Source: Candidatus Sulfotelmatobacter sp. (GTDB taxonomy: Bacteria; Vulcanimicrobiota; Vulcanimicrobiia; Vulcanimicrobiales; Vulcanimicrobiaceae). From it: a stretch of DNA of 64,000 nt. Within the stretch, counting starts at the first letter, position 1; each line of letters begins with the position of its first letter. Below the pieces are notes generated by a model. It was not told where the DNA came from. It did not search any database and worked only from the letters and a program-made list of their open reading frames with translations. Positions 6,307 to 42,368 of this stretch are shown here, one piece after another. The DNA lies in NCBI GenBank assembly GCA_035504415.1, contig DATJRY010000013.1, forward strand, positions 1 to 64,000, given 5' to 3'. A program made the position numbers and the translations under genes.

Positions 6307-6822
6307 CTATTCGTCGCTCGACGTGCTCGAATGGGCCGCCCAGGGGCGGTGCGTGACCGTCTCGGTGGCGGCGGAGGCCAGCGCCACGGAGCAGCGCTGC
6401 AGCGCGCTCATGAGCGTGTCGAACTGCTCGGGGCCGAGCTCGTCGCGCAAATAGTTCTCGATCGCGGCGGCCCGCGTCTCGGCGCGCGCGAGGAGATCCT
6501 CGCCGGCCGGCGTCAGCCGCGTCTCCAACGTGCGCCCGCCGGTCGGGCACGGAACCCGCCGGATCAGGCCGCGGGCCTCGAGCCGCGCGACGGTCGCGCT
6601 CATCGCCTGGGGGGTCACGAAGCTCGCCCGGGCGAGCTCGGCGGCGGAAATGTCGGCGTTCATCGCGATGAGCGCCATCGCCAGGAACTGTTGACCGGTC
6701 AGGCCCAGCTCGTCGAGCTCGCGCTCGAGGGCCGCTTTCGAGACGCCTTGGGCGTACTTCAGGACGGCGAGCAGGTGGCCACTGTAGCAGTAGAGGGCGG
6801 CGTCGGGGAGGAGATTTTCCAT
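6307..6822 (-). CDS. MarR-family transcriptional regulator
   Basis: Winged-helix regulator of about 171 aa. The DNA-binding core reads ISAAELARASFVTPQAMS, the recognition helix region, followed by the wing GLIRRVPCPTGGRTLETRLT and the helix LTPAGEDLLA. The start is uncertain: ATG 6822 or ATG 6840, neither with a clear SD; the TTG further upstream (6879) falls inside a hairpin and is unlikely. It lies downstream of a small exported protein whose promoter carries a MarR-like palindrome, so the two may be co-transcribed and autoregulated. A ligand cannot be predicted; Cys115 in the wing might allow redox sensing. Confidence 0.85.
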   Translation of the reverse strand: MENLLPDAALYCYSGHLLAVLKYAQGVSKAALERELDELGLTGQQFLAMALIAMNADISAAELARASFVTPQAMSATVARLEARGLIRRVPCPTGGRTLETRLTPAGEDLLARAETRAAAIENYLRDELGPEQFDTLMSALQRCSVALASAATETVTHRPWAAHSSTSSDE

Positions 6823-6840
6823 GGGGCGGGGTCCGGCCAT

Positions 6841-6863
6841 GGCCGTCCCACTTCGGGACGGCC
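6841..6863. promoter_or_regulatory. 9-bp inverted repeat ahead of the MarR gene
   Basis: GGCCGTCCC, a five-base spacer, then GGGACGGCC: a perfect nine-base inverted repeat immediately upstream of the candidate ATG at 6840. It has no T-tract, so it is not a classical terminator. It could be a protein-binding site or an RNA hairpin limiting marR translation. Confidence 0.35.
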
Positions 6864-6875
6864 ACGACGGGTCTT

Positions 6876-6892
6876 GCAAGAAACCTTCTTGC
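6876..6892. other. Short hairpin between exported protein and MarR genes
   Basis: GCAAGAA, loop ACC, TTCTTGC: a perfect seven-base inverted repeat starting seven bases after the stop of the exported-protein gene on the minus strand. There is no U-tract, so it may be a weak attenuator or a processing or stability element between the two genes. Confidence 0.3.
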
Positions 6893-6898
6893 GCGGGG

Positions 6899-7291
6899 CT
6901 AGGCGTGCCAGGTGGTGCCGTCGCTGAACGTGACGGCCTCGACGTCGCACGAGGTCGGGGCGGCGACGGTCGGGACGAAGTCGTTCGTGATCTCGGTGCC
7001 GGGGGCGAAGCTGCCCTGGGCGACGATGGTCTGCGTCTGGCCGCCGGCGTGGACGGCGAACTCGACGGCGGTCGCCGGGCGGTCGCCGTTGTTGACGAAC
7101 GAGATGCTCAGGTCGCCGGAGCTGAACGTCGGGGACGCGCCTTCGTTGTAGGCGCCGTTCTCCTGCACGTTGACCGCGCAGCCGACGACGGAGACCGGAG
7201 AGACGCCCTGTTGTGCGCTGGCGGGGAGGGCCGCGGCCGACACGCCCAGGGTGGCAGCGGCGAAGGAGGCGAGGAGAAGCTTGCTGGTCAT
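6899..7291 (-). CDS. Small exported protein of unknown function
   Basis: 130 aa with a clear signal peptide ending PASA before QQ. The mature protein (about 103 aa) has two cysteines, near residues 38 and 115, that could form one disulfide, and is beta-rich by appearance (repeated polar/hydrophobic alternation, NGD and GT turns). I recognise no family. No good SD precedes the ATG at 7291; AAAGGAC lies too far upstream. The promoter region 7349-7378 carries an AT-rich palindrome and the next gene encodes MarR, so expression is probably MarR-controlled. Confidence 0.7.
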   Translation of the reverse strand: MTSKLLLASFAAATLGVSAAALPASAQQGVSPVSVVGCAVNVQENGAYNEGASPTFSSGDLSISFVNNGDRPATAVEFAVHAGGQTQTIVAQGSFAPGTEITNDFVPTVAAPTSCDVEAVTFSDGTTWHA

Positions 7292-7348
7292 GGTGTGTCC
7301 GTTGGTGTCCTTTGGCGGCCGAGCCGCCGGTAGTTCTTGAACACACCC

Positions 7349-7373
7349 TTTATATCATATTGATTGATATAAA
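7349..7373. promoter_or_regulatory. AT-rich palindromic operator overlapping a promoter
   Basis: TTTATATCA, seven bases, TGATATAAA: a perfect nine-base half-site palindrome. On the minus strand a promoter reads TTGTCT (7373-7378 region) then, 18 bases on, TATAAA (7349-7354), so the palindrome covers the spacer and -10. Such AT-rich palindromes are typical MarR sites. A bound repressor would block transcription of the exported protein and, by read-through, of marR. Confidence 0.65.
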
Positions 7374-7384
7374 GACAACAGACT

Positions 7385-9133
7385 TTAGTCGGAGAGCTCC
7401 TTCGTTTCGCTCAGACCCTCGCTGGACTCGTAGCCGATGCGCACGCAGCCGAAGCGGTCCTCACCCAGGTAGACCGGGACGGCCAGATCGTTGAGGATGA
7501 CGCCGGTGTCCCGGGCGTACGTCTGCAGCGCGAAACCGCGCGGGCCGGCGGGCCGGCGCAGGTCGATCCCGTGCCGGGCGAAGTCGGCCCGCCGGGCGCG
7601 CTTGGGGACGCCCGTCGCGCCCAGCCCGGCCCGCGCGGCGCCCAGGCCGATCGGGTCCTCGAAGATCCGTTTGACCCGGTTGCCGGCCAGGTCCAGCGCG
7701 CGTTCACCCGTCCAGTCGCACCGCAGCGCGCGCGAGGTCATCACCGCGAAGCCGTTGAGGTCGGTGACGCTGGCGAAGACCAGGCGCGGATCGCACGCGG
7801 CCCAGGCGTCGCAGACCGGCGCCAGCGCTTCGTCGACGAGCTGGTCGCCGGCGGTGCGGTACTTGGGCGGATCGAAGCCCGCGCCGGCGCGCGTGACGTC
7901 GAACAGGCGCGCGAGGGTGCGCACCAGCGCGCCGGTCAGCGGCTCGTAGGTGTCGTCGAGCAGCTGCGCGCGTTGCGCGTGCCCGCGCGCGAGGGCGTCG
8001 GCGAGCACGTGCTCGACCTCGGCGGCGAAGGCGTCGCCCCAGCCGCGCACGCGGTCGAAGAAGGTGCCCAGCGCGAAGCCGCCGGCCAACCCGAAGATCG
8101 CGGCGTTGATCTCCCCGAGCACCAGACCGCGCGCCCGCGCGGCGTGCGCGGCCGACTCCTCGCCGTGCTGATTCAGCGTGGCGACGTTGCGCGAGACTTG
8201 GTGCAGCGTCGCCGACTGCTCGTCGACCGCGGCCGCGATCGCCGCGATCTGACTGCTCGCCTCCAGCACGACGCTGCCCATGCGGGTGAGGTCCTCGCGC
8301 ACGGCGGCGGAGTCGCTGGTCACGGCGGCGGTCTCGCCCGCGCTGTGCGTCGTCGCCTCGTGCGCGGAGCCGACGGCGGCGCGCACGTCGCGCACCAGCT
8401 GCGCGATCGCGCGCGTCGAGCTGCGGGTCGAGTCGGCCAGCTTCTTGATCTCGTCGGCGACGACGGAGAAGCCGCGCCCGTGCTCGCCGGCGTGCGCCGC
8501 CTCGATCGCGGCGTTGATCGCCAACAAGTTGGTGCGCACCGAGACGTCGTCGATGACGTCGAGCATCAACTCGATCTGCCCGGCGTGCTCGACCACGACG
8601 GCGACGTCGGCGACGGCCTGCTGCGCGTGCGCGCGCAGCTCGCCCAGCCGCTCCAACGAGCGGTCCATCGTTTCGAACGAGGTCGCCGCAAAGCGCTGCA
8701 GCTCGTCGGTCAGCGAACGGGTCGCGTCGCTCGACTCGGCGACGACGGCGGCGGCTTGCGCGGTCTGATGGACCGCCGTCGCCAACTGCGCGGTCTCGTC
8801 GGCTTGCCGTTCGGTGACCTCGGCGATCCGGCGCAGCAGGAACGCGTTCTCGGCGGCGGCGCGCGAAGCGTCGTTCGAGCTGCGGCAGATCGCGGCCAAG
8901 ACGCCGTGCACGCGCGCGACGAACGCGTCGAGCGCGGCGAACGCCTCCGCTTCGAGCGGACCGGCGCCCGGCGGCGGTGCGAAGGTGCGGGTCAGATCGA
9001 CGACGTGCTGCGGGTTGGCCAGCTCGCGCAGATGCGCGGCCAGAAGCGCGAGCGCCGGCGCAGCGACTTCGCCGCGCACGCTGGAGTCGAGTTCCATGCG
9101 GACCACCGGGACGAGGGCTATGGTTCCCATCAT
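7385..9133 (-). CDS. Soluble methyl-accepting chemotaxis-type receptor with C-terminal sensor
   Basis: 582 aa with no signal peptide or membrane helix, so cytoplasmic. The central coiled coil carries the MCP signalling hairpin at about 200-235 ([20 protein letters not shown], then [12 protein letters not shown]). The region after about 350 is a separate domain. Its [21 protein letters not shown] and [18 protein letters not shown] motifs match a PAS/Cache-like module found at the C-terminus of some cytoplasmic MCPs. Receptor and sensor are therefore in reversed order compared with classical receptors. It stands alone, with no che genes nearby. The signal is unknown; adjacent ATGs at 9133 and 9130 are equivalent starts. 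Confidence 0.85.
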
Positions 9134-9178
9134 CGGCAGTTCGGTTCGCTCCCGGCTACCCCCGAAAGGCTAGGTGCG

Positions 9179-9955
9179 CTACATCCCCGCGTCGATCGTC
9201 AACCCGCCGTCGACGACGATGGTCTGGCCGGTCACGTACGCGCTGGCGCGCGAAGCCAAGTAGAGCGCGGTCCCCGCGACGTCGTCGGGATCGGCCAGCC
9301 GCCGCAGCGGCGCGCGCGCGACGGCCGGGTCGGCGACGGCGGGATCGTCCCACAGCGCCTTGGCGAAGTCGGTCCGCACGATGCCCGGTGCGATGCAGTT
9401 GACGCGGACGCCGCGCGGGCCCCACTCGACGGCCAAGCTGCGTGCCAAGCCGATCAGCGCGGTCTTCGAGACCGCGTAGGCGCCGATGTTGCGCGTCCCG
9501 GTCAAGCCGACGATGCTGCTCAAGAAGATCGCCGCGCCGCCGCCGCGCGCGGCGATGTGCGGAAAGCTCGCCTGTGCCAGCCACAGCGTGCCGCGCACGT
9601 TGCTCTGCAGGATACGATCCCAAGCGTCGTCGCCGATCTCGGCCAACGGCCCGTAGTAGGGGTTGACGGCGGCATTGGCGACGACGACGTCGAGCCCGCC
9701 CCAGTGCGCGACGGTGCCGGCGACGAGCGCCGCGAGCTGCTCCTTCTTGCCGACGTGCGCCGGAATCGCGAGGGCCGCGTGGCCGGCGGCGGCGAGCTCC
9801 GCGACGACCTGCGCGCAGGCCTCCGCGTCGCGGCTGGAGATGACGACCCGCGCGCCGCGCTGCGCGAACCGGGTCGCGATCGCGCGCCCGATCCCGCGCG
9901 AGGAGCCGGTCACGATCGCGACCTTCCCGCGCAGGTCGAAGAGATCGTCGCTCAC
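9179..9955 (-). CDS. Short-chain dehydrogenase/reductase, DHRS4-like
   Basis: 258-aa classical SDR. The cofactor motif TGSSRGIG is at 16-23, the NAAVNPYYG segment near 94 resembles the DHRS4 group, the catalytic serine is S146/S147, and Y160 and K164 are in YAVSK. Arg40-type residues after the second strand (ISSRDA) suggest NADP(H). It is the last gene of the TetR/acyl-CoA dehydrogenase operon, starting a few bases past the kinase stop. In that setting it probably oxidises or reduces a hydroxy- or ketoacyl substrate. DHRS4-like enzymes reduce carbonyls and retinal, but the exact substrate is unknown. Confidence 0.88.
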   Translation of the reverse strand: MSDDLFDLRGKVAIVTGSSRGIGRAIATRFAQRGARVVISSRDAEACAQVVAELAAAGHAALAIPAHVGKKEQLAALVAGTVAHWGGLDVVVANAAVNPYYGPLAEIGDDAWDRILQSNVRGTLWLAQASFPHIAARGGGAAIFLSSIVGLTGTRNIGAYAVSKTALIGLARSLAVEWGPRGVRVNCIAPGIVRTDFAKALWDDPAVADPAVARAPLRRLADPDDVAGTALYLASRASAYVTGQTIVVDGGLTIDAGM

Positions 9956-34101: not shown

Positions 34102-36719
34102 GCCGGCTGTTTGGCCAGCGCGTCGCGCAGCGCCGCCAGCGCCGCCGGCGCACCGGCGGGATCCTTGCCGCCGCCTTGTGCTTGACCCGGCGCGCCGCCG
34201 CCCTTGCCGCCGAGCAGCGGCGCGGCCGCGCGCACGAGGTTGCCGGCGTGCACGCCGGCCCGCACCGCGTCCTCGCTGGCGTTGACGAACACCGACGCCG
34301 TGTCGCCGTCGACGCCGATCAGCGCGATCACGCCGGACGGCATGCGCGAACGGATCGCGTTGCCGAGCGCGCGCAGCGCCTCGGCGTTCGCTTCCCGCAC
34401 GATCGTCGCGACGACGCGCACGCCGCCCAGCTCTTCGGCCTGCGCGAGGTAGCTCGCCGCGTCGCCGGCGGCCAGGCGCGCCTTGATCTCGGCCAGCGCC
34501 TTCTGCAGGTCGCGCACGTCGGACTGCAGCCGTTCGACCCGTTCGACCAGCTCGTCGGGCTTGACGGCCAGCGCCTCGCCGAGCGTGGCCAGCGTGTCCT
34601 GCTGCGCTTCGACGTACGCCTCCGCGGCCTTCGAGACCACCGCTTCGATGCGCCGCACGCCGCTTCCGATCGAGCTCTCGGCGAGCATGACGAACATTCC
34701 CAGCTCGCCGGTCGTGTGCGCGTGCGTGCCGCCGCAGAACTCGACCGACGGGCCGAACTGCACGACCCGCACGCGATCGCCGTACTTCTCGCCGGCCATC
34801 GTGATCGCGCCCGTCTCCTTGGCTTCCGCGATCGGCAGCTCGCGCATCTCCTGGTGGAAGTCGTCGCGGATCAGCTCGTTGACGCGCTGCGTCACCGCGC
34901 GCCGCTGCGCGGGCGTCAACGCGCCGCCCGGGCTGCGGAAGTCGAAGCGCATGCGATCGACGCCGACCCACGAACCGGCCTGGACGATCTCCTCGCCGAG
35001 CACGTCCTTGAGCGCGCGCTGCAAGAGGTGCGCCGAGGTGTGATGGCGCCGAATCTCGCGCCGCCACTCTTCGTACACGCGCGTATGGACCTGATCGCCC
35101 AGGGCCAGCACGCCGTCGACCAGCCGCCCGTGGTGCGCGATCGCCTCGCCGACGAATTGCGTGTCGGTCACCTCGAAGCGCGCGCCGGACGCGGTGGTGA
35201 TGACACCGTGGTCGCCGACCTGGCCGCCCTTCTCGGCGTAGAACGAGGTGCGGTCGAGCAGCAGCTGCGCCTCGGTCTCGGGCTCGATGACGGAGACGAC
35301 GGCGCCGCCGACCAGGATGCCGCGCACCTCGCCATCGGCTTCGAGGCCTTCGTAGCCGGTGAAGTCGGAGCTGAGCGCGGGCGCCTCGCTGACGCTGACG
35401 ACGGCGCGCTTGCGCGCCGCATCGCTGCGCGCGCGTTCGCGCTGCTCGCTCATCCGGTGCTCGAAGCCGAGGCTGTCGACCGCGACGCCGCGCTCGGCCG
35501 CGATCTCGCGCGTCAGCTCGAACGGAAAGCCGTACGTATCGTGCAGCGTGAAGGCGTCTTCGCCCGAGATCAGCATCGTGCAGTCGCGCACCGCGTCGTC
35601 GATCAGCGCCTCGAGCAGCTCGCTGCCGCGATCGAGCGTGCGCGAGAACGCCGCTTCCTCGTTGCGCAGCGCGGTCTGCACGTCGTTCAAGCGCGCCGGC
35701 AGCTCGGGGTAGCCGCTCCGGAGCGAGGTGACGACGGCGGCGGCCAGCTCGGCGAGGAACTCGCGCGGATAGCCCAGCAGTCGTCCGTTGCGGATCGCGC
35801 GCCGGATCAGGAAGCGCAGCACGAAGCCGCGATCGGTGTTCGAGGGGTAGACACCGTCGGCGACCAGGAAGGTCGCCGCGCGCGCGTGGTCGGCGATGAT
35901 GCGCCGGCGCACCAGCTGCTCGGCCGCGGCGAGCGAGGTCTGCCCGATCGACGGCTGCGCCGCGATGAGGTCGGTGAACAAGTCCGTCTCGTACATCGAG
36001 ACCTGACCGTTGGCGACCGCCAGCATCCGCTCGAAGCCGGCGCCGGTGTCGATCGCCTTGCGCGGCAGCTCGGTCATCCCTCCGTCGGCACCGCGGTTGA
36101 ACTGCTGGAAGACGACGTTCCAGATCTCGACGTAGCGGTTGCCCTTGTTGGGGCCGTCGTCGTCGGGACCGAGCGCGTTGGCCGCACCGGTGTCGTAGAA
36201 GATCTCGCTGCACGGTCCGCACGGGCCGGTCGGCCCCATCGTCCAGAAATTGTCCTCGTCCCAACGCGTGATGCGCGAGGACGGCAGCCCGATCTCGCTC
36301 TCCCAGATCCGCTGCGCCTCGTCGTCGCCGGTGTGGACGGTGACGTACAGCTTGGCGGGATCCAGGCGCATGACCGCGGTCATGAACTCCCACGCGAAAC
36401 GGATCGCCTCGCGCTTGTAGTAGTCGCCGAACGAGAAGTTGCCGAGCATCTCGAGGAACGTCCCGTGGCGACCGGTGCGGCCGACGTTCTCGATGTCGGA
36501 CTTGGCGCCGGCCACGCGCAGGCAGCGCTGCACGGTCACGGCGCGCGGTGCCGGCGCCGGCTGTTCGCCCAAGAACACCGGGACGAACTGCTCCATCCCG
36601 GCGATGGTGAAGAGCGTCGTGCTCATCTCGTCGGGGATCAACGAGGCCGACGGCAGATGCGCGTGGCCGTTGCGCACGAAGTAGTCGACGAAGGCTTGGC
36701 GGAGTTCCTGGGACGTCAT
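34098..36719 (-). CDS. alaS: Alanyl-tRNA synthetase
   Basis: 873 aa, full length. Class II core at the N-terminus (RQAFVDYFVRNGHAHLPSAS, TFLEMLGNFSFGDYYKREAI, FWTMGPTGPCGPCSEIFYD, the last with class II motif residues). The editing domain has HHTSAHLLQRAL and the CGGTHAHTTGELG zinc motif; the C-Ala domain ends the protein. ATG 36719 has GAGGGT ahead. It charges tRNA-Ala and hydrolyses mischarged Ser/Gly. Divergent from the radical SAM gene, with 64 bases between starts. Confidence 0.97.
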   Translation of the reverse strand: MTSQELRQAFVDYFVRNGHAHLPSASLIPDEMSTTLFTIAGMEQFVPVFLGEQPAPAPRAVTVQRCLRVAGAKSDIENVGRTGRHGTFLEMLGNFSFGDYYKREAIRFAWEFMTAVMRLDPAKLYVTVHTGDDEAQRIWESEIGLPSSRITRWDEDNFWTMGPTGPCGPCSEIFYDTGAANALGPDDDGPNKGNRYVEIWNVVFQQFNRGADGGMTELPRKAIDTGAGFERMLAVANGQVSMYETDLFTDLIAAQPSIGQTSLAAAEQLVRRRIIADHARAATFLVADGVYPSNTDRGFVLRFLIRRAIRNGRLLGYPREFLAELAAAVVTSLRSGYPELPARLNDVQTALRNEEAAFSRTLDRGSELLEALIDDAVRDCTMLISGEDAFTLHDTYGFPFELTREIAAERGVAVDSLGFEHRMSEQRERARSDAARKRAVVSVSEAPALSSDFTGYEGLEADGEVRGILVGGAVVSVIEPETEAQLLLDRTSFYAEKGGQVGDHGVITTASGARFEVTDTQFVGEAIAHHGRLVDGVLALGDQVHTRVYEEWRREIRRHHTSAHLLQRALKDVLGEEIVQAGSWVGVDRMRFDFRSPGGALTPAQRRAVTQRVNELIRDDFHQEMRELPIAEAKETGAITMAGEKYGDRVRVVQFGPSVEFCGGTHAHTTGELGMFVMLAESSIGSGVRRIEAVVSKAAEAYVEAQQDTLATLGEALAVKPDELVERVERLQSDVRDLQKALAEIKARLAAGDAASYLAQAEELGGVRVVATIVREANAEALRALGNAIRSRMPSGVIALIGVDGDTASVFVNASEDAVRAGVHAGNLVRAAAPLLGGKGGGAPGQAQGGGKDPAGAPAALAALRDALAKQPA

Positions 36720-36783
36720 GGGCGACCCTCGGGGTTCCACACGGCGACCGGGAAACCCGGTTGGTCCGCAGGAAGGGGTGGGC

Positions 36784-38853
36784 GTGCGGGTCGTTCTCGT
36801 CGACAACGTGCTGCTGGAGCAAACGGGCACCGGGTTCACGGCGACGCTCCAGCCGCACTTGGGCTTGATCTCGCTGATCGCGGTGCTGCGGGAGCTGGGT
36901 CACGACGCGCGCCTGCTCGACCCCAAGCTCGACCTGGTGCGCGGCGAGGTCGCGCTCGGGCCCCACTTCTACGGCGCGGTGGCGGAGCGGATTCTGGCCG
37001 GCGATCCGGACGTCGTGGGCTTCACCTCGCTGGGCTGCAACTTCGCCTGCACGGTGCGCATCGCCGCGCGCGTCCGCGCGGCGCGGCCGGCGCTGCCGAT
37101 CCTGTTGGGCGGCCCGCACGCCAGCATCGTCGACGAGCCGATCCTCGCCGCGTACCCGCAGTTCGACGCGATCGTGCGCAACGAGACCGAGGCCGTCATC
37201 GGCGCGGTCCTCGACGCGCTCGGCGGCAACGGCAGCCTGGCCGACGTCCCCGGGGTGACCTACCGGCGCGAGGGCGCGATCGCGCGCACCGCCGGCGCCG
37301 GCCCGCTGCTCGAGCTCGACGCGCTGCCGTTCCCCGCCTATGACGTCTATCCGATCGCGGAGCTGGCGCTGACGACGCTGCGCGTCGATGCCGGGCGCGG
37401 CTGCCCGTTCGGCTGCACGTTCTGCTCGACGGCCAGCTTCTTCGGCCGGCGCTACCGGCTCAAGTCGCCCGAGCGGCTGGTCGGCGAGCTCGACCGCCTG
37501 GCGCAGACCTACGGCGTGCGGCGCTTCAACCTGACCCACGACCTGTTCACCGTCGACGCGCGGCGCGTACGCGCGTTCTGCGAGGAGGTCGCCGGCCGCG
37601 GCTACGCCTGGACGTGCTCGGCGCGCATGGATTGCGTCGACGACGCGCTGCTCGCGCAGATGCGCGACGCCGGCTGCAGCGCGATCTACTACGGCGTCGA
37701 GACCGGTTCGACGCGCTTGCAGCCGCTGGTCGGCAAGCATCTCGACCTGGCGCTCTACCGGCCGATCGTCGAAACCTCGTTGCGGCTGGGGCTCGACACG
37801 ACGGTCTCGTTCATCACCGGGTATCCGAACGAGCTGGCGTCCGACGCGGACGCGACGCTGGAGCTGCTCGGCGAGAGCATCGAGACCTATCCCGACGCGC
37901 TCTCGGTGCAGCTGCATCTGCTCACGCCCGAACCCGGCACCGCGCTGCACCACGAGTACGCGCACGCGCTGGCATACGACGGTCACGTCAGCGACTTCAA
38001 CTTCCCCGCGCTGGTCGACGGCGACGAAGAGCTGATCGCCGCCGACCCGGCGTCGTTCGTCTGCCACCACTACTTCGCCGCCGGTCTGCCGCGCGAGGAG
38101 CACCTGGCCGCGACCGAAGGGTATCGCATCCTCTACGGCCTGGGGCACGCGCTGGTGCGCGCGATCCGGCGCGCCGCCGACATGCCGTTCGCGGCGCTGG
38201 TGCGCGCGGTGGGCCGCTTCGTGCGCGGCTATCCGGGTCCGGCCGACGCCGCGCTGGTCGCGTTCCTCGAGGCGCGTTTCGGCGCCGGTTCGTCGTTCGC
38301 CGAGATCGTGCGCTACGGGCGCGCGGCCGCGAGCCTGCGGCCGGACGACGCGCCGCGCGCCGCGCACGTCGACGCCGGCACGCCGCTGCGCCTGGCGCGC
38401 ACCATCGCGCCGGTCGCGTTCGGACGCGACGGCGCCGAGCTCACCCGCCGTGTGCGCGCGGGGCTGCCGCTCGACGAGCCGGCCCTGCCGTCGTCATGGT
38501 GGCTGACCTTCGGCGACGGGCGCGCGGCCGGAGCGTCGTTCGCCGTCGATCGCGTCACCTACGAGCTGGCGTGCGTCTTGCGCGAGGGGACGACGCGCGC
38601 ACAGCTCGAGCAGCGCTTCGAGACCGCCGACGTCGAGGCGCGCTTGTGGTCGCTGAGCCTGATGAGCGGCCTGTGTTACGCCGACGACGCGACGGCCGGC
38701 TCGTCGTCCGTCAGCCCCAGCCGGCGCAGCATCGCCGGATCGGCGGCCGCCGGCGCCGCCGGCGGGACGTACAGCGTCGACATGGTCGGAATCGCCGCCT
38801 CGGCGAGCCGCGCCAGCGGCACGCGCTCGATCTCGGGATCGCAGATCTCGTAG
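36784..38853 (+). CDS. B12-binding-type radical SAM enzyme, candidate RiPP tailoring enzyme
   Basis: 689 aa. Residues 1-150 form a Rossmann-like cobalamin-binding-type domain (VDNVLLE, DVVGFTSLGCNF, LLGGPHASI) without the DxHxxG base-off motif. The radical SAM core has GCPFGCTFCS with Cys207, Cys211 and Cys214 for the 4Fe-4S cluster, then YYGVETGSTRLQPLV and SFITGYPNE. After about 590, DRVTYELACVLREGTTRAQL resembles a small winged-helix or PqqD-like domain. GTG 36784 has AGGAAGG seven bases ahead. The last 178 bases overlap the methyltransferase gene on the other strand, and the encoded tail there is low-complexity, suggesting a lost earlier stop. Its position argues for modification of the borosin precursor; chemistry is inferred. 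Confidence 0.8.
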   Translation: MRVVLVDNVLLEQTGTGFTATLQPHLGLISLIAVLRELGHDARLLDPKLDLVRGEVALGPHFYGAVAERILAGDPDVVGFTSLGCNFACTVRIAARVRAARPALPILLGGPHASIVDEPILAAYPQFDAIVRNETEAVIGAVLDALGGNGSLADVPGVTYRREGAIARTAGAGPLLELDALPFPAYDVYPIAELALTTLRVDAGRGCPFGCTFCSTASFFGRRYRLKSPERLVGELDRLAQTYGVRRFNLTHDLFTVDARRVRAFCEEVAGRGYAWTCSARMDCVDDALLAQMRDAGCSAIYYGVETGSTRLQPLVGKHLDLALYRPIVETSLRLGLDTTVSFITGYPNELASDADATLELLGESIETYPDALSVQLHLLTPEPGTALHHEYAHALAYDGHVSDFNFPALVDGDEELIAADPASFVCHHYFAAGLPREEHLAATEGYRILYGLGHALVRAIRRAADMPFAALVRAVGRFVRGYPGPADAALVAFLEARFGAGSSFAEIVRYGRAAASLRPDDAPRAAHVDAGTPLRLARTIAPVAFGRDGAELTRRVRAGLPLDEPALPSSWWLTFGDGRAAGASFAVDRVTYELACVLREGTTRAQLEQRFETADVEARLWSLSLMSGLCYADDATAGSSSVSPSRRSIAGSAAAGAAGGTYSVDMVGIAASASRASGTRSISGSQIS

Positions 38854-39482
38854 ACGGCCGCCTTGTAGACGACCACCTCGTGTCCGGCCGGGTAGTGCGG
38901 TGCGAGCACCTCGGCCAGCACCGCCAACCCGTCGCGGTTCCACGGACCACCGCCCTCGCGCATGCCGCGCTCGGCGATCACGCCGATCTGCCAGATGATC
39001 AGCGCGCTGCGTGGATCGAAGACACGCCGGTGCACGAGGAAGTCCGTCGCCTCGAAGCTCTGGCAGCCGCCGTCGCCCGGATCGACGCCCAGGTCGGCGA
39101 ACAGACAATCCTCCGCCGACACCGCCGCGAACATCGTGGCGGGATAGCCTTCGGCGCGCGCGCGGCGGATCGACTCGTGGGTCGGGAACGCGAACACGCC
39201 GGGATGGCCGTAGACCGCCAAACACACGTCGAGGCCGTCGCGCACGGCGCCCAGCACGTGCTCGACGATCTCTTCGTAGGTGCGCCGGCGCGGCTTACCG
39301 ACCTCGTAGTGCGCGTGCAGGGGCTCCGCGCTCGGATTGAGCCCGCGCAGCCAGTGCAGCGTGAGCGAGTCGGCCGACAGAAAGAAGACCTTCTGCGCCC
39401 GCTCGATCGCGACCAGCGTCTCCGCCGTGACCTGGGCGCCGACCCGGATGCCGGTGCCGACGACGCACAACGATCCCGCCAC
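38676..39482 (-). CDS. OphMA/SonM-like peptide alpha-N-methyltransferase (split borosin type)
   Basis: 268 aa of the tetrapyrrole-methylase fold. Landmarks match the borosin enzymes, not cobalamin or siroheme methylases: VVGTGIRVG at 5-13, the R65/Y69 pair in RRRTYEE at the place of OphMA Arg72/Tyr76, YGHPGVF at 91-97, VSAEDCLFADLGVDP then GGCQSFEATDFL (about 121-149), EVVVYKAAVYEICDPE and TLYVPP near the C-terminus. It would use SAM to methylate backbone amides of a peptide. GTG 39482 lies 11 bases after the precursor stop; an ATG inside the precursor gene (39533) is a less likely start. Precursor and enzyme are separate genes, as in Shewanella SonA/SonM. Confidence 0.87.
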   Translation of the reverse strand: MAGSLCVVGTGIRVGAQVTAETLVAIERAQKVFFLSADSLTLHWLRGLNPSAEPLHAHYEVGKPRRRTYEEIVEHVLGAVRDGLDVCLAVYGHPGVFAFPTHESIRRARAEGYPATMFAAVSAEDCLFADLGVDPGDGGCQSFEATDFLVHRRVFDPRSALIIWQIGVIAERGMREGGGPWNRDGLAVLAEVLAPHYPAGHEVVVYKAAVYEICDPEIERVPLARLAEAAIPTMSTLYVPPAAPAAADPAMLRRLGLTDDEPAVASSA

Positions 39483-39493
39483 GGTGCGCCCGC

Positions 39494-39742
39494 CTAGCGC
39501 AAGTCGATCATGAAGACCATCAGCACCGGCCATGACCCGCCGCCCGGGTTGGGTGGGAACTCCGCCTGGATCGCCTTGCTGATGCGATCGGAGTCCTTGC
39601 TCAGGATCGCGTCCTGCTGCGCCGCCGAGAGCCCCGCGGCGCTCATCGCCGCGCGCGCGTCGGCGTCGGATTTCCGATGGGTGGCGGCGGCGGCGGGATC
39701 ACGCGCAAGCGCGAGCAGATAGTCGGCGATGGATGCGGCCAT
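39494..39742 (-). CDS. Split borosin precursor peptide
   Basis: 82 aa. A helical, acidic leader matches the borosin-binding-domain pattern: IADYLLALARDP, then ARAAMSAAGLSAAQQDAILS and KDSDRISKAI. A linker FPPNPGGG follows, then a hydrophobic end SWPVLMVFMIDLR (70-82), the presumed core, rich in Val, Leu, Ile, Met and Phe like known alpha-N-methylated cores. The ATG has a strong GGGGAGGA SD, consistent with high precursor output. The methyltransferase gene follows at 11 bases and the ATPase regulator precedes it by 34 bases. Length, gene order and core type fit SonA-like precursors. The cleavage and methylation sites are inferred. Confidence 0.82.
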   Translation of the reverse strand: MAASIADYLLALARDPAAAATHRKSDADARAAMSAAGLSAAQQDAILSKDSDRISKAIQAEFPPNPGGGSWPVLMVFMIDLR

Positions 39743-39776
39743 GGTCGTCCTCCCCGGTTCAGGTGCGAGCTGGGTG

Positions 39777-42233
39777 CTATCGCCCGTCCGCCTCCTCGGC
39801 CGCTTGTTCCTCGTCGAACAGCGCACCGATGCTGGCGAGTCGGTCGAAATCGGTTCCGCCGAGCCGCTCGATGAGCTCCGCCCGGGTGCGATCGCGCAGC
39901 CGCGGAATCAGGAACACCGAGCGGAACGGCAGCGCGCCGGCGCGCGCTTGCGCGAAGCCGAGCAGTCGCGCCGCGCGCAGGTCGTCGCCCGCCCGGACGT
40001 GGACCGCCGCCGCGACGATGATCGCTTCCAAGAACGCGATCGGGTTCTGCGCCTCGAGCAGGTCGGCGATCGCGCGCGTGACGTGCACGCGCGCCTCGGC
40101 GATACGCCCTTCGGCGAGCAGCGCGTGCGCGAGCCGGTAGTGCGCGGTCGCGATGCGGCGCGCGTCGCGCAGCCGTTCGGTCAGCGCCAGCGAGCGTTGC
40201 GAGAGGTCGACGGCGCGCGGGGCGTCGTCGACCCACAGCGCGGCCTCGGCGAAGCCGCGCAGCACCAGTGCCGCGTCGCGGTCGCGCTTGGTGCGCGCCG
40301 TGACTTCGTCGGCTTCGGCGAACCGTTCGAGCGCCTGCGAGAGCTCGCCGGTGTAGAGGTGCACGAAGCCGAGCAGCGCCAGCATGCGGCCCGCCGCGAT
40401 CGCGTCGAAGGCCGCGCGCGCCAGCGCGATCCCTTCGTGCAGCGCTTCACGCGCATCGCCGTAGCGGCCCAGGTTGATCAGCGCCTGCGCGCGATACGCG
40501 AGCGTCTCGTAGGTGCCGGTCGCGTCCGCGACGTCGCGGAAGCCGGCCAGCGCGCGCTCCGCCAGCGAGAGCGTCTCGTCGGAGAACAGGTGCACGCGCA
40601 CCGACTCGAGCAGCACGCGCGAGGCGAGCTGCGGCGAGAGGCCGTCGGAGGCCGCACGCGCCAGCCCGAGCCAGTACGCGCCTTCCTGGAAACGCCGCGC
40701 GTCCCAGAACGGCCCGAGCAGCGCCGCGATCTGCGCGCCGGACGCGACGTCGGCGCGCTCGCCGAGCGTCCAGGTCAGCGCCGCGCGGACGTGCTCGATC
40801 TCGCGCTCGACTTGCGCCAGCCAGACGTCCTCGGGCAACTGCCGGCTGGTCGTGCGCGCGCGGTGCGCGAACGCCAGCTCCATCGCGACGTGGCGCGCGC
40901 CGACCTCGGCGCGCTCGCCCAGCTCGTCCAGCCGCGAGAGCGCGTACGTGCGGGCCGACTCGAGCAGATGGAAACGGCCTTCGCCGTCGTCGTCGGCCTC
41001 GGCCACGACCAGCGACTTCTCGACCAGCGAGACCAGCAGCTCGGGGACGTCCTTGGCATCGATCGCGCCGCCGCCGCACACCGGGATCGCCGCTTCGAGC
41101 GTCCACGAACCGGCCAGCACGCCGAGACGGCAGAACACCGTCGCCTCGTCGTGAGTGAGTAGCTCGAAGCTCCAATCCATCAGCGCACGCAGCGTCCTTT
41201 GCCGGGGAACGTTCCGTCGGCCGGCGGTGAGCAGTCGCAGTCGTTCGTCCAATCGCGCGGCCACCTGCGCCACGCCCAGAGCGGGAATCGTCGCCGCCGC
41301 CAGCTCGAGCGCCAGCGGGATGCCGTCGAGACGACTGCAGATCGTCGCCACGGCGGCGCCGTTGCGTTCGGTCAACTGGAAGCGTGGGTCGTGTGCGGCG
41401 GCGCGCTCGATGAACAGCTCGACCGCGCCGAAGCGCAGGGCGTCGTCCGGCCCGACGGGGGCGCCTTCGTCGGGAACGGTGAGCGGCGGCAGGCGGTAGA
41501 CGACTTCACCGTCGACGTGCAGCGGCTCGCGGCTGGTCGCCAGCACGTCGACGTACGGACAGCGCGCCGCGATCTCGGCGGTGACGCGCGCGGCCTCCTC
41601 GACGACGTGCTCGCAGTTGTCGAGCACCAGCAGCAGCGAGCGAGCGCGCAAGCCCGCGACGATGATGTCGAGCAGCGGCCGATCGGCCTGCTCCGGGATC
41701 TCGAGCGCGGCGGCGACCTCCTGCGCGACCAGCCGCGCGTCGCTGACGTTGGCCAGCTCGACCACCCACACGCCGTCGCCGTACCGTTCGAGCAGCTCGA
41801 AGCCGAGCTCGAGCGCGACGCGCGTCTTGCCGACGCCGCCGATCCCGGCGACGGTCACGACGCGACCGTCCGCGATCAGCCGGCGCAGCTCGCGCCGTTC
41901 CCCCTCGCGACCGACGAAGCGCGTGAGCGGACGGTTCAGGTTGTGGCGCCGGGCCGGCGCGGCCGGCATCGTCGTCGCGGTGACCAGCGTGAGCGGCGTC
42001 GGCCGCGTCGCCGCCGCTTCCAGACGCGCACGGTTCTCGACGTCGAGCTCGAGCGCTTCGATCAGGAGTGCGAGGGTTTGACGCTGCGGAACCTTGCGGC
42101 TCCCGCGTTCGAGCGTGCTGATCGCGTCCACGCTGAGCGTCGCGCGCTCCGCGAGGGCTTCCTGCGACAGCCCCCGCGCCAGCCGGAGCTGACGCAGGAG
42201 CCTGCCGAACGGCGCCCGCCCGGGTTCGTCCAC
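39777..42233 (-). CDS. XRE-family HTH / STAND-type ATPase / TPR regulator
   Basis: About 818 aa. N-terminal XRE helix-turn-helix (FGRLLRQLRLARGLSQEALA at 9-28, then VDAISTLERGSRKVP), NB-ARC-like ATPase with FVGREGERREL, P-loop GIGGVGKT (130-137), VLDNCEHV Walker B and GIPLALELAAA, then a long alpha-helical TPR region to the end. Such proteins act as ligand- or partner-triggered activators, many near antibiotic clusters. The start is probably GTG 42233 or 42236 behind GGGGGA; GTG 42320 is in phase. The borosin precursor begins 34 bases after the stop on the same strand, so it may regulate or be co-transcribed with it. Confidence 0.82.
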   Translation of the reverse strand: MDEPGRAPFGRLLRQLRLARGLSQEALAERATLSVDAISTLERGSRKVPQRQTLALLIEALELDVENRARLEAAATRPTPLTLVTATTMPAAPARRHNLNRPLTRFVGREGERRELRRLIADGRVVTVAGIGGVGKTRVALELGFELLERYGDGVWVVELANVSDARLVAQEVAAALEIPEQADRPLLDIIVAGLRARSLLLVLDNCEHVVEEAARVTAEIAARCPYVDVLATSREPLHVDGEVVYRLPPLTVPDEGAPVGPDDALRFGAVELFIERAAAHDPRFQLTERNGAAVATICSRLDGIPLALELAAATIPALGVAQVAARLDERLRLLTAGRRNVPRQRTLRALMDWSFELLTHDEATVFCRLGVLAGSWTLEAAIPVCGGGAIDAKDVPELLVSLVEKSLVVAEADDDGEGRFHLLESARTYALSRLDELGERAEVGARHVAMELAFAHRARTTSRQLPEDVWLAQVEREIEHVRAALTWTLGERADVASGAQIAALLGPFWDARRFQEGAYWLGLARAASDGLSPQLASRVLLESVRVHLFSDETLSLAERALAGFRDVADATGTYETLAYRAQALINLGRYGDAREALHEGIALARAAFDAIAAGRMLALLGFVHLYTGELSQALERFAEADEVTARTKRDRDAALVLRGFAEAALWVDDAPRAVDLSQRSLALTERLRDARRIATAHYRLAHALLAEGRIAEARVHVTRAIADLLEAQNPIAFLEAIIVAAAVHVRAGDDLRAARLLGFAQARAGALPFRSVFLIPRLRDRTRAELIERLGGTDFDRLASIGALFDEEQAAEEADGR

Positions 42234-42368
42234 CACCCATCCCCCGATTGAGTCCGCCACACCCAGTGCGGACCCGAAGCGACGGGACGTGTACTCATAC
42301 GAAGGTAGGCTTTCCCCCACCGTTGCCTGCCCCGTACGCCTTTCGGGGGCGACCCGGACCGCGTTGAC

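Follow-up and report, generated by a model that had tools for sequence, protein, structure and literature searches.

The locus examined here raises the question of whether a small gene, whose product ends in a bulky hydrophobic tail, and the methyltransferase gene beside it encode a borosin pathway in which that tail is the methylated core. Backbone N-methylation makes peptides resistant to proteases and able to cross membranes, and among ribosomal routes to such peptides the borosins are the main one known. We analyzed a 64,000-nucleotide stretch of DNA, here called the window, from Candidatus Sulfotelmatobacter sp. The features relevant to the question, with their basis in parentheses, are as follows.

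36718..38853, plus strand: B12-dependent radical SAM (rSAM) protein, ApyD-like, convergent with the methyltransferase gene and overlapping its 3' end; connection with the borosin uncertain (Pfam, NCBIfam)
38676..39479, minus strand: borosin alpha-N-methyltransferase, 267 aa from GTG (MAGSLCVVGTG...) (matches to SonM, OphMA and TP_methylase; GTG start in L125)
39497..39742, stop codon 39494-39496, minus strand: putative split-borosin precursor peptide, 82 aa (translation; binding-domain profile matching SonA; homologues adjoining methyltransferase genes)
39557..39742, minus strand: borosin-binding domain (BBD) or leader, residues 1-62, predicted five-helix bundle (AlphaFold2 model; superposition on the SonA BBD)
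39527..39556, minus strand: linker PPNPGGGSWP, residues 63-72 (pLDDT 50-66 past residue 61; partly common to the nearest relatives)
39497..39526, minus strand: predicted core VLMVFMIDLR, residues 73-82 (rare hydrophobic run; lineage-variable; SonA-like placement after BBD and linker)
39749..39753, minus strand: strong Shine-Dalgarno GGAGG of the precursor gene (sequence)
39777..42320, minus strand: HTH-STAND (NB-ARC)-TPR regulator preceding the precursor gene, start codon uncertain (Pfam; syntenic homologue in genome G001)

A small gene with a hydrophobic tail precedes a methyltransferase gene

The minus-strand ORF from 39742 to 39494 (ATG to TAG) encodes 82 amino acids, MAASIADYLLALARDPAAAATHRKSDADARAAMSAAGLSAAQQDAILSKDSDRISKAIQAEFPPNPGGGSWPVLMVFMIDLR, with the C-terminal end ...PPNPGGGSWPVLMVFMIDLR. 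A preliminary description had singled out the C-terminal peptide as a borosin core behind a GGG spacer. Translation bore out its sequence, its GGG and its numbering of Pro72, and the peptide is indeed in frame on the minus strand; the range given for it, 39494-39532, had slipped by 3 nt, so that it starts at Trp71 and takes in the stop codon. The peptide SWPVLMVFMIDLR corresponds to residues 70-82 (Ser70-Arg82) at 39535-39497, followed by the stop codon at 39496-39494.

With VLMVFMI at residues 73-79, this is the sole ORF with at least seven consecutive V/I/L/M/F residues in its last 13 among the 296 window ORFs of at least 60 aa, and no such run ends any of 116 ORFs of at least 200 aa, the window and related loci serving as background for the comparison. 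A phmmer search returned precursor homologues whose best three (E 2e-11 to 3e-11) each lie directly upstream of a methyltransferase gene, the position that homologous small ORFs occupy in Eremiobacterota relatives. Because the leader is kept in these relatives, the ORF is not a chance reading frame.

The neighboring gene encodes a borosin methyltransferase

The best PDB matches of the methyltransferase were all borosin methyltransferases, with SonM at 8e-60, OphMA and dbOphMA at about 1e-51 to 1e-50 and MroMA at 3e-39, and it also matched the Pfam model TP_methylase (60 bits, cut-off 27.8). Together with a leader profile that finds SonA (see below), this supports the earlier proposal of a borosin-type precursor, which adjoins a genuine borosin N-methyltransferase. 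Mutation of SonM residues Y58, R67, Y71 and Y93 slowed the enzyme (PMC8429565); they align with Y76, R82, Y86 and Y108 here, which are invariant or at least 90% conserved among ten homologues. SonM-SonA of Shewanella oneidensis, a type IV split borosin (PDB 7LTC and others, PMC8429565), likewise has a separate methyltransferase of about 265 aa with the same active-site residues, to which the enzyme here is clearly homologous yet divergent.

The methyltransferase ORF (285 aa, 267 from the GTG) carries no fused clasp or core, and the SonM match spans query residues 20-276. The GTG at 39479, 14 nt past the precursor stop, is the likely start, since homology begins there and, in another genome (G118, locus L125), the equivalent GTG comes immediately after the stop of the precursor. 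It was preferred to an ATG-started ORF from 39533, which was set aside, so the 40 nt that this longer ORF shares with the core are probably not a real overlap. A separate precursor with a predicted binding domain lies 14 nt from the start of its methyltransferase gene. In the fungal borosin OphMA/omphalotin, the methyltransferase domain is homologous (E 1e-51), the clasp region is homologous to the BBD and the core is likewise bulky and hydrophobic, but enzyme and core form one protein, whereas here they are split.

The first part of the precursor resembles the borosin-binding domain of SonA

Searched alone against the PDB, the precursor gave neither SonA nor any other relevant match, so a profile was needed. 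A leader profile built from Eremiobacterota sequences only matched SonA at E about 2e-5, and a wider profile of 19 diverse sequences matched it at E 5e-15 and also matched the OphMA clasp region; the former is the cleaner test, because the wider profile takes in members found by iteration. Short weak matches of the leader profiles to TALE repeats, added up over many repeats, were dismissed, as was a match of the precursor to the IniB N-terminal model (NCBIfam, 16.9 bits, cut-off 40). NCBIfam gave no borosin precursor match.

AlphaFold2 modeled helices at residues 5-14, 16-24, 26-35, 40-47 and 51-61, followed by a low-confidence segment at residues 62-82 (pLDDT 50-66 after residue 61). The model superposed on the SonA BBD with a Z of 7.9 and 1.4 Å over 52 of 52 residues, ahead of the dbOphMA clasp (Z 6.7) and LigA (Z 5.2, 4.1 Å), although a Z below 13 for a small helical bundle is not strong taken alone. 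Foldseek E-values for so small a helical model were weak (5.2), and weight was put on the VIA-align rmsd and on the sequence profiles. The same relationship between the SonA BBD, the OphMA clasp and LigA was previously described for SonA. Judged from profiles and predicted fold, the first ~61 residues of the precursor are a borosin-binding domain.

Both this protein and SonA are about 70-80 aa long, with an N-terminal five-helix BBD (a modeled one in the precursor here), a linker and a C-terminal core, actual or predicted, and with the methyltransferase gene adjacent. The BBD here has an insertion of about 4 residues relative to SonA, the Pro/Gly linker is longer, and so is the continuous hydrophobic run (VLMVFMI); the two cores show no evident sequence similarity.

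The tail varies between lineages and is constrained within one genus

The preliminary description had suggested asking whether variation among homologous precursors is confined to the tail. We compared leaders and tails of eight Eremiobacterota precursors in 28 pairs. Leader similarity was high in all 28 (z 6-39), while tail similarity stayed below z 3 in 23 of them, rising within the sub-lineages L032/L033/L035, G051/G052 and window/G052; the window and G052 tails share 8 of 19 residues (z 5.2). All invariant columns of the alignment fall within the leader. Across lineages, therefore, the C-terminal segment is more variable than the leader, as in a type IV core. Not so in the same-genus pair L032/L033, where leader and tail are equally constrained (leader pN 0.113, pS 0.58; tail pN 0.126, pS 0.62, the tail being 25 codons long and of low power). 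A tail as conserved as its leader, the pattern that would speak against a core, was thus absent across lineages and would appear to be present within that genus. Constraint within a genus and turnover between lineages suggest that selection acts on the tail inside a lineage and that one tail is exchanged for another from lineage to lineage, which is what a functional product would be expected to show.

In keeping with the preliminary description, the tail is a hydrophobic segment past a SonA-like binding domain, lineage-variable and modeled with low confidence. The GGG hinge proposed to precede it is repeated only in the closest relatives (G052, PNPAGG; G051, SRGG). Others lack it (ALQGAL, GDLLDAIYW), and the hinge is therefore no requirement; linker lengths also vary among precursors.

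A probable split borosin pathway and its alternatives

The methyltransferase homology with its conserved active site, the homology and modeled fold of the BBD, the adjacency of the two genes, and a conserved leader joined to a variable tail indicate that these genes would make up a borosin RiPP operon of the split, type IV-like kind, in which docking of the BBD precedes N-methylation of the core (probability about 0.88), and that the tail is likely its core. By analogy with SonM-SonA, the methyltransferase very probably places backbone methyl groups on the precursor tail. The N-terminal five-helix domain (residues ~1-61) would dock on the separate methyltransferase. The flexible linker 63-72 would then thread the hydrophobic core 73-82 into the active site, and SAM would supply methyl groups for several of the V73-I79 backbone amides, proceeding in the N- to C-terminal direction. 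The run 73-79 is most likely the methylated stretch, and since Pro72 allows no backbone N-methylation, Val73 would be the earliest target in it. A protease from beyond the neighboring genes would free the product; no dedicated protease gene was recognized next to the precursor and methyltransferase genes, and no macrocyclization peptidase like that for omphalotin was seen near the locus.

Methyl groups might instead fall in the linker, on W71/S70 or G67-G69, the tail being a conserved docking or regulatory segment. SonA has its linker at 54-61 and its core at 62-71, with methyls placed on L63 and then I65 (PMC8429565). Counting from D50, which corresponds to SonA D46, would put the counterparts of these positions at residues 67 and 69, ahead of the hydrophobic run, and the tail is conserved in the pair L032/L033. 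We nevertheless consider methylation of the linker quite unlikely: its length differs from precursor to precursor, and at the position that is methylated SonM forms a large hydrophobic pocket (PMC8429565), favoring V/L/M/F/I over Gly. This preference, taken with the long linker, makes V73-I79 the likelier target than G67-G69. A role of the small protein as an accessory subunit like LigA, beside an ordinary tetrapyrrole (precorrin-type) methylase, is highly improbable. This reading would account for the TP_methylase match, for a weak Pfam LigA match (E 0.0075; 16.8 bits, below the curated cut-off of 25.3) and for the 'LigA domain-containing' titles of SonA homologues in the PDB. It sits badly with the best PDB matches of the enzyme, which are peptide N-methyltransferases, with the weak scores of precorrin methylase models on it (NCBIfam, 19 bits, cut-off 391) and with a model that fits the SonA BBD far better than LigA; moreover, no dioxygenase gene is adjacent.

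The adjacent rSAM gene suggests a further reading, in which the borosin core is a substrate of its product as well and is C-methylated or altered in some other way, giving a hybrid RiPP with N- and C-methyls. ApyD of the Burkholderia Apy pathway is a RiPP C-beta-methyltransferase (PMC10635010), and the rSAM matches the ApyD model NF050148 over most of its length at 574 bits (NCBIfam), which falls under the cut-off of 750. Its gene touches the methyltransferase gene, in a layout repeated in G001 (61% identity). A PF05114 search of the window's genome, which is 95.7% complete, found no MNIO, the class-defining enzyme encoded with the B12-dependent rSAM in Apy-type loci; the locus is therefore not an apy pathway, which counts for the hybrid, the tie of the rSAM to the borosin peptide being putative. 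An antisense ORF beside a BBD precursor in G068 is also weakly similar to the rSAM (E 1e-3, single pairwise comparison). On the other side, the other borosin loci examined have no comparable rSAM apart from one weak match (L059, E 1e-14, 24% identity), G001 keeps its rSAM intact with the borosin genes deleted, and a homologue in G005 lies near a DUF692/MNIO-like gene (named by eye) on a different contig. Given this lack of co-occurrence, we rejected an obligate partnership of the rSAM with the borosin. A hybrid pathway is not favored, and it seems unlikely that the rSAM, with the STAND regulator perhaps in control, adds C-methyls to side chains of the N-methylated core. In G005, the rSAM homologue and DUF692/MNIO-like ORF (L111, about 6357-9735) resemble an apy-like pathway apart from that genome's borosin locus.

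Distribution of borosin loci and related architectures

A scan of a genome collection with the methyltransferase alignment gave 79 loci, in Eremiobacterota, Acidobacteria, Cyanobacteria, myxobacteria, Chloroflexi, archaea and others. With the iterated leader profile, a BBD ORF was found within 300 nt upstream of the methyltransferase in 45 of them, spread over many phyla; in another 17, mostly cyanobacterial, it lay 1-3 kb downstream. Viral contigs held no relatives of the methyltransferase, and plasmids only distant ones (under 60% identity). The literature searched contained no report of borosins in Eremiobacterota, an uncultivated phylum from which the operon described here would be a new split-borosin member.

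Within one family, the methyltransferase or what remains of it occurs in 13 of 99 genomes. Their diverse cores, each following a conserved docking domain, would offer natural enzyme-core pairs for probing which sequences the enzyme accepts. The precursor was detected at E <= 0.01 in one of the 11 genomes of the genus, among which no closely related intact copy was found. In G001 (99% complete, single contig), an internal deletion has joined the precursor N-terminus and the C-terminal half of the methyltransferase in a single reading frame (L028, about 9492-9917). The operon is therefore dispensable. A syntenic homologue of the STAND regulator adjoins this remnant. STAND/NB-ARC-TPR regulators also adjoin borosin methyltransferases in L032, L033, L044, L060, L064, L072, L084 and L100; such loci, given here as raw occurrences, are found in Eremiobacterota, Chloroflexota and Corallococcus. 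In G068 (99% complete), a BBD precursor follows a STAND regulator (L124, 5497-5757), with no methyltransferase in the last 340 nt of the contig and no match to one in the genome at 1e-20.

Other architectures were also observed. The BBD is N-terminally fused to the methyltransferase as a single ORF in L025 (11560-12582, G069), L102, L107 and L109 (3036-3995), resembling type 0-like architectures. In a genome of the same genus as the window (G009), SGFVRA occurs twice in a precursor tail (L024, 11386-11706), which suggests multiple cores. Long precursor tails of repeated PQIFPQ/HPQ-type units follow the binding domain in L089 (3044-3865) and L099 (3123-3980), and precursors with poly-valine ends (VVVVVL, TVTVVVVVVVVV) lie just upstream of a methyltransferase in L055 (952-1443), L058 (3359-3865) and L090 (3561-3788).
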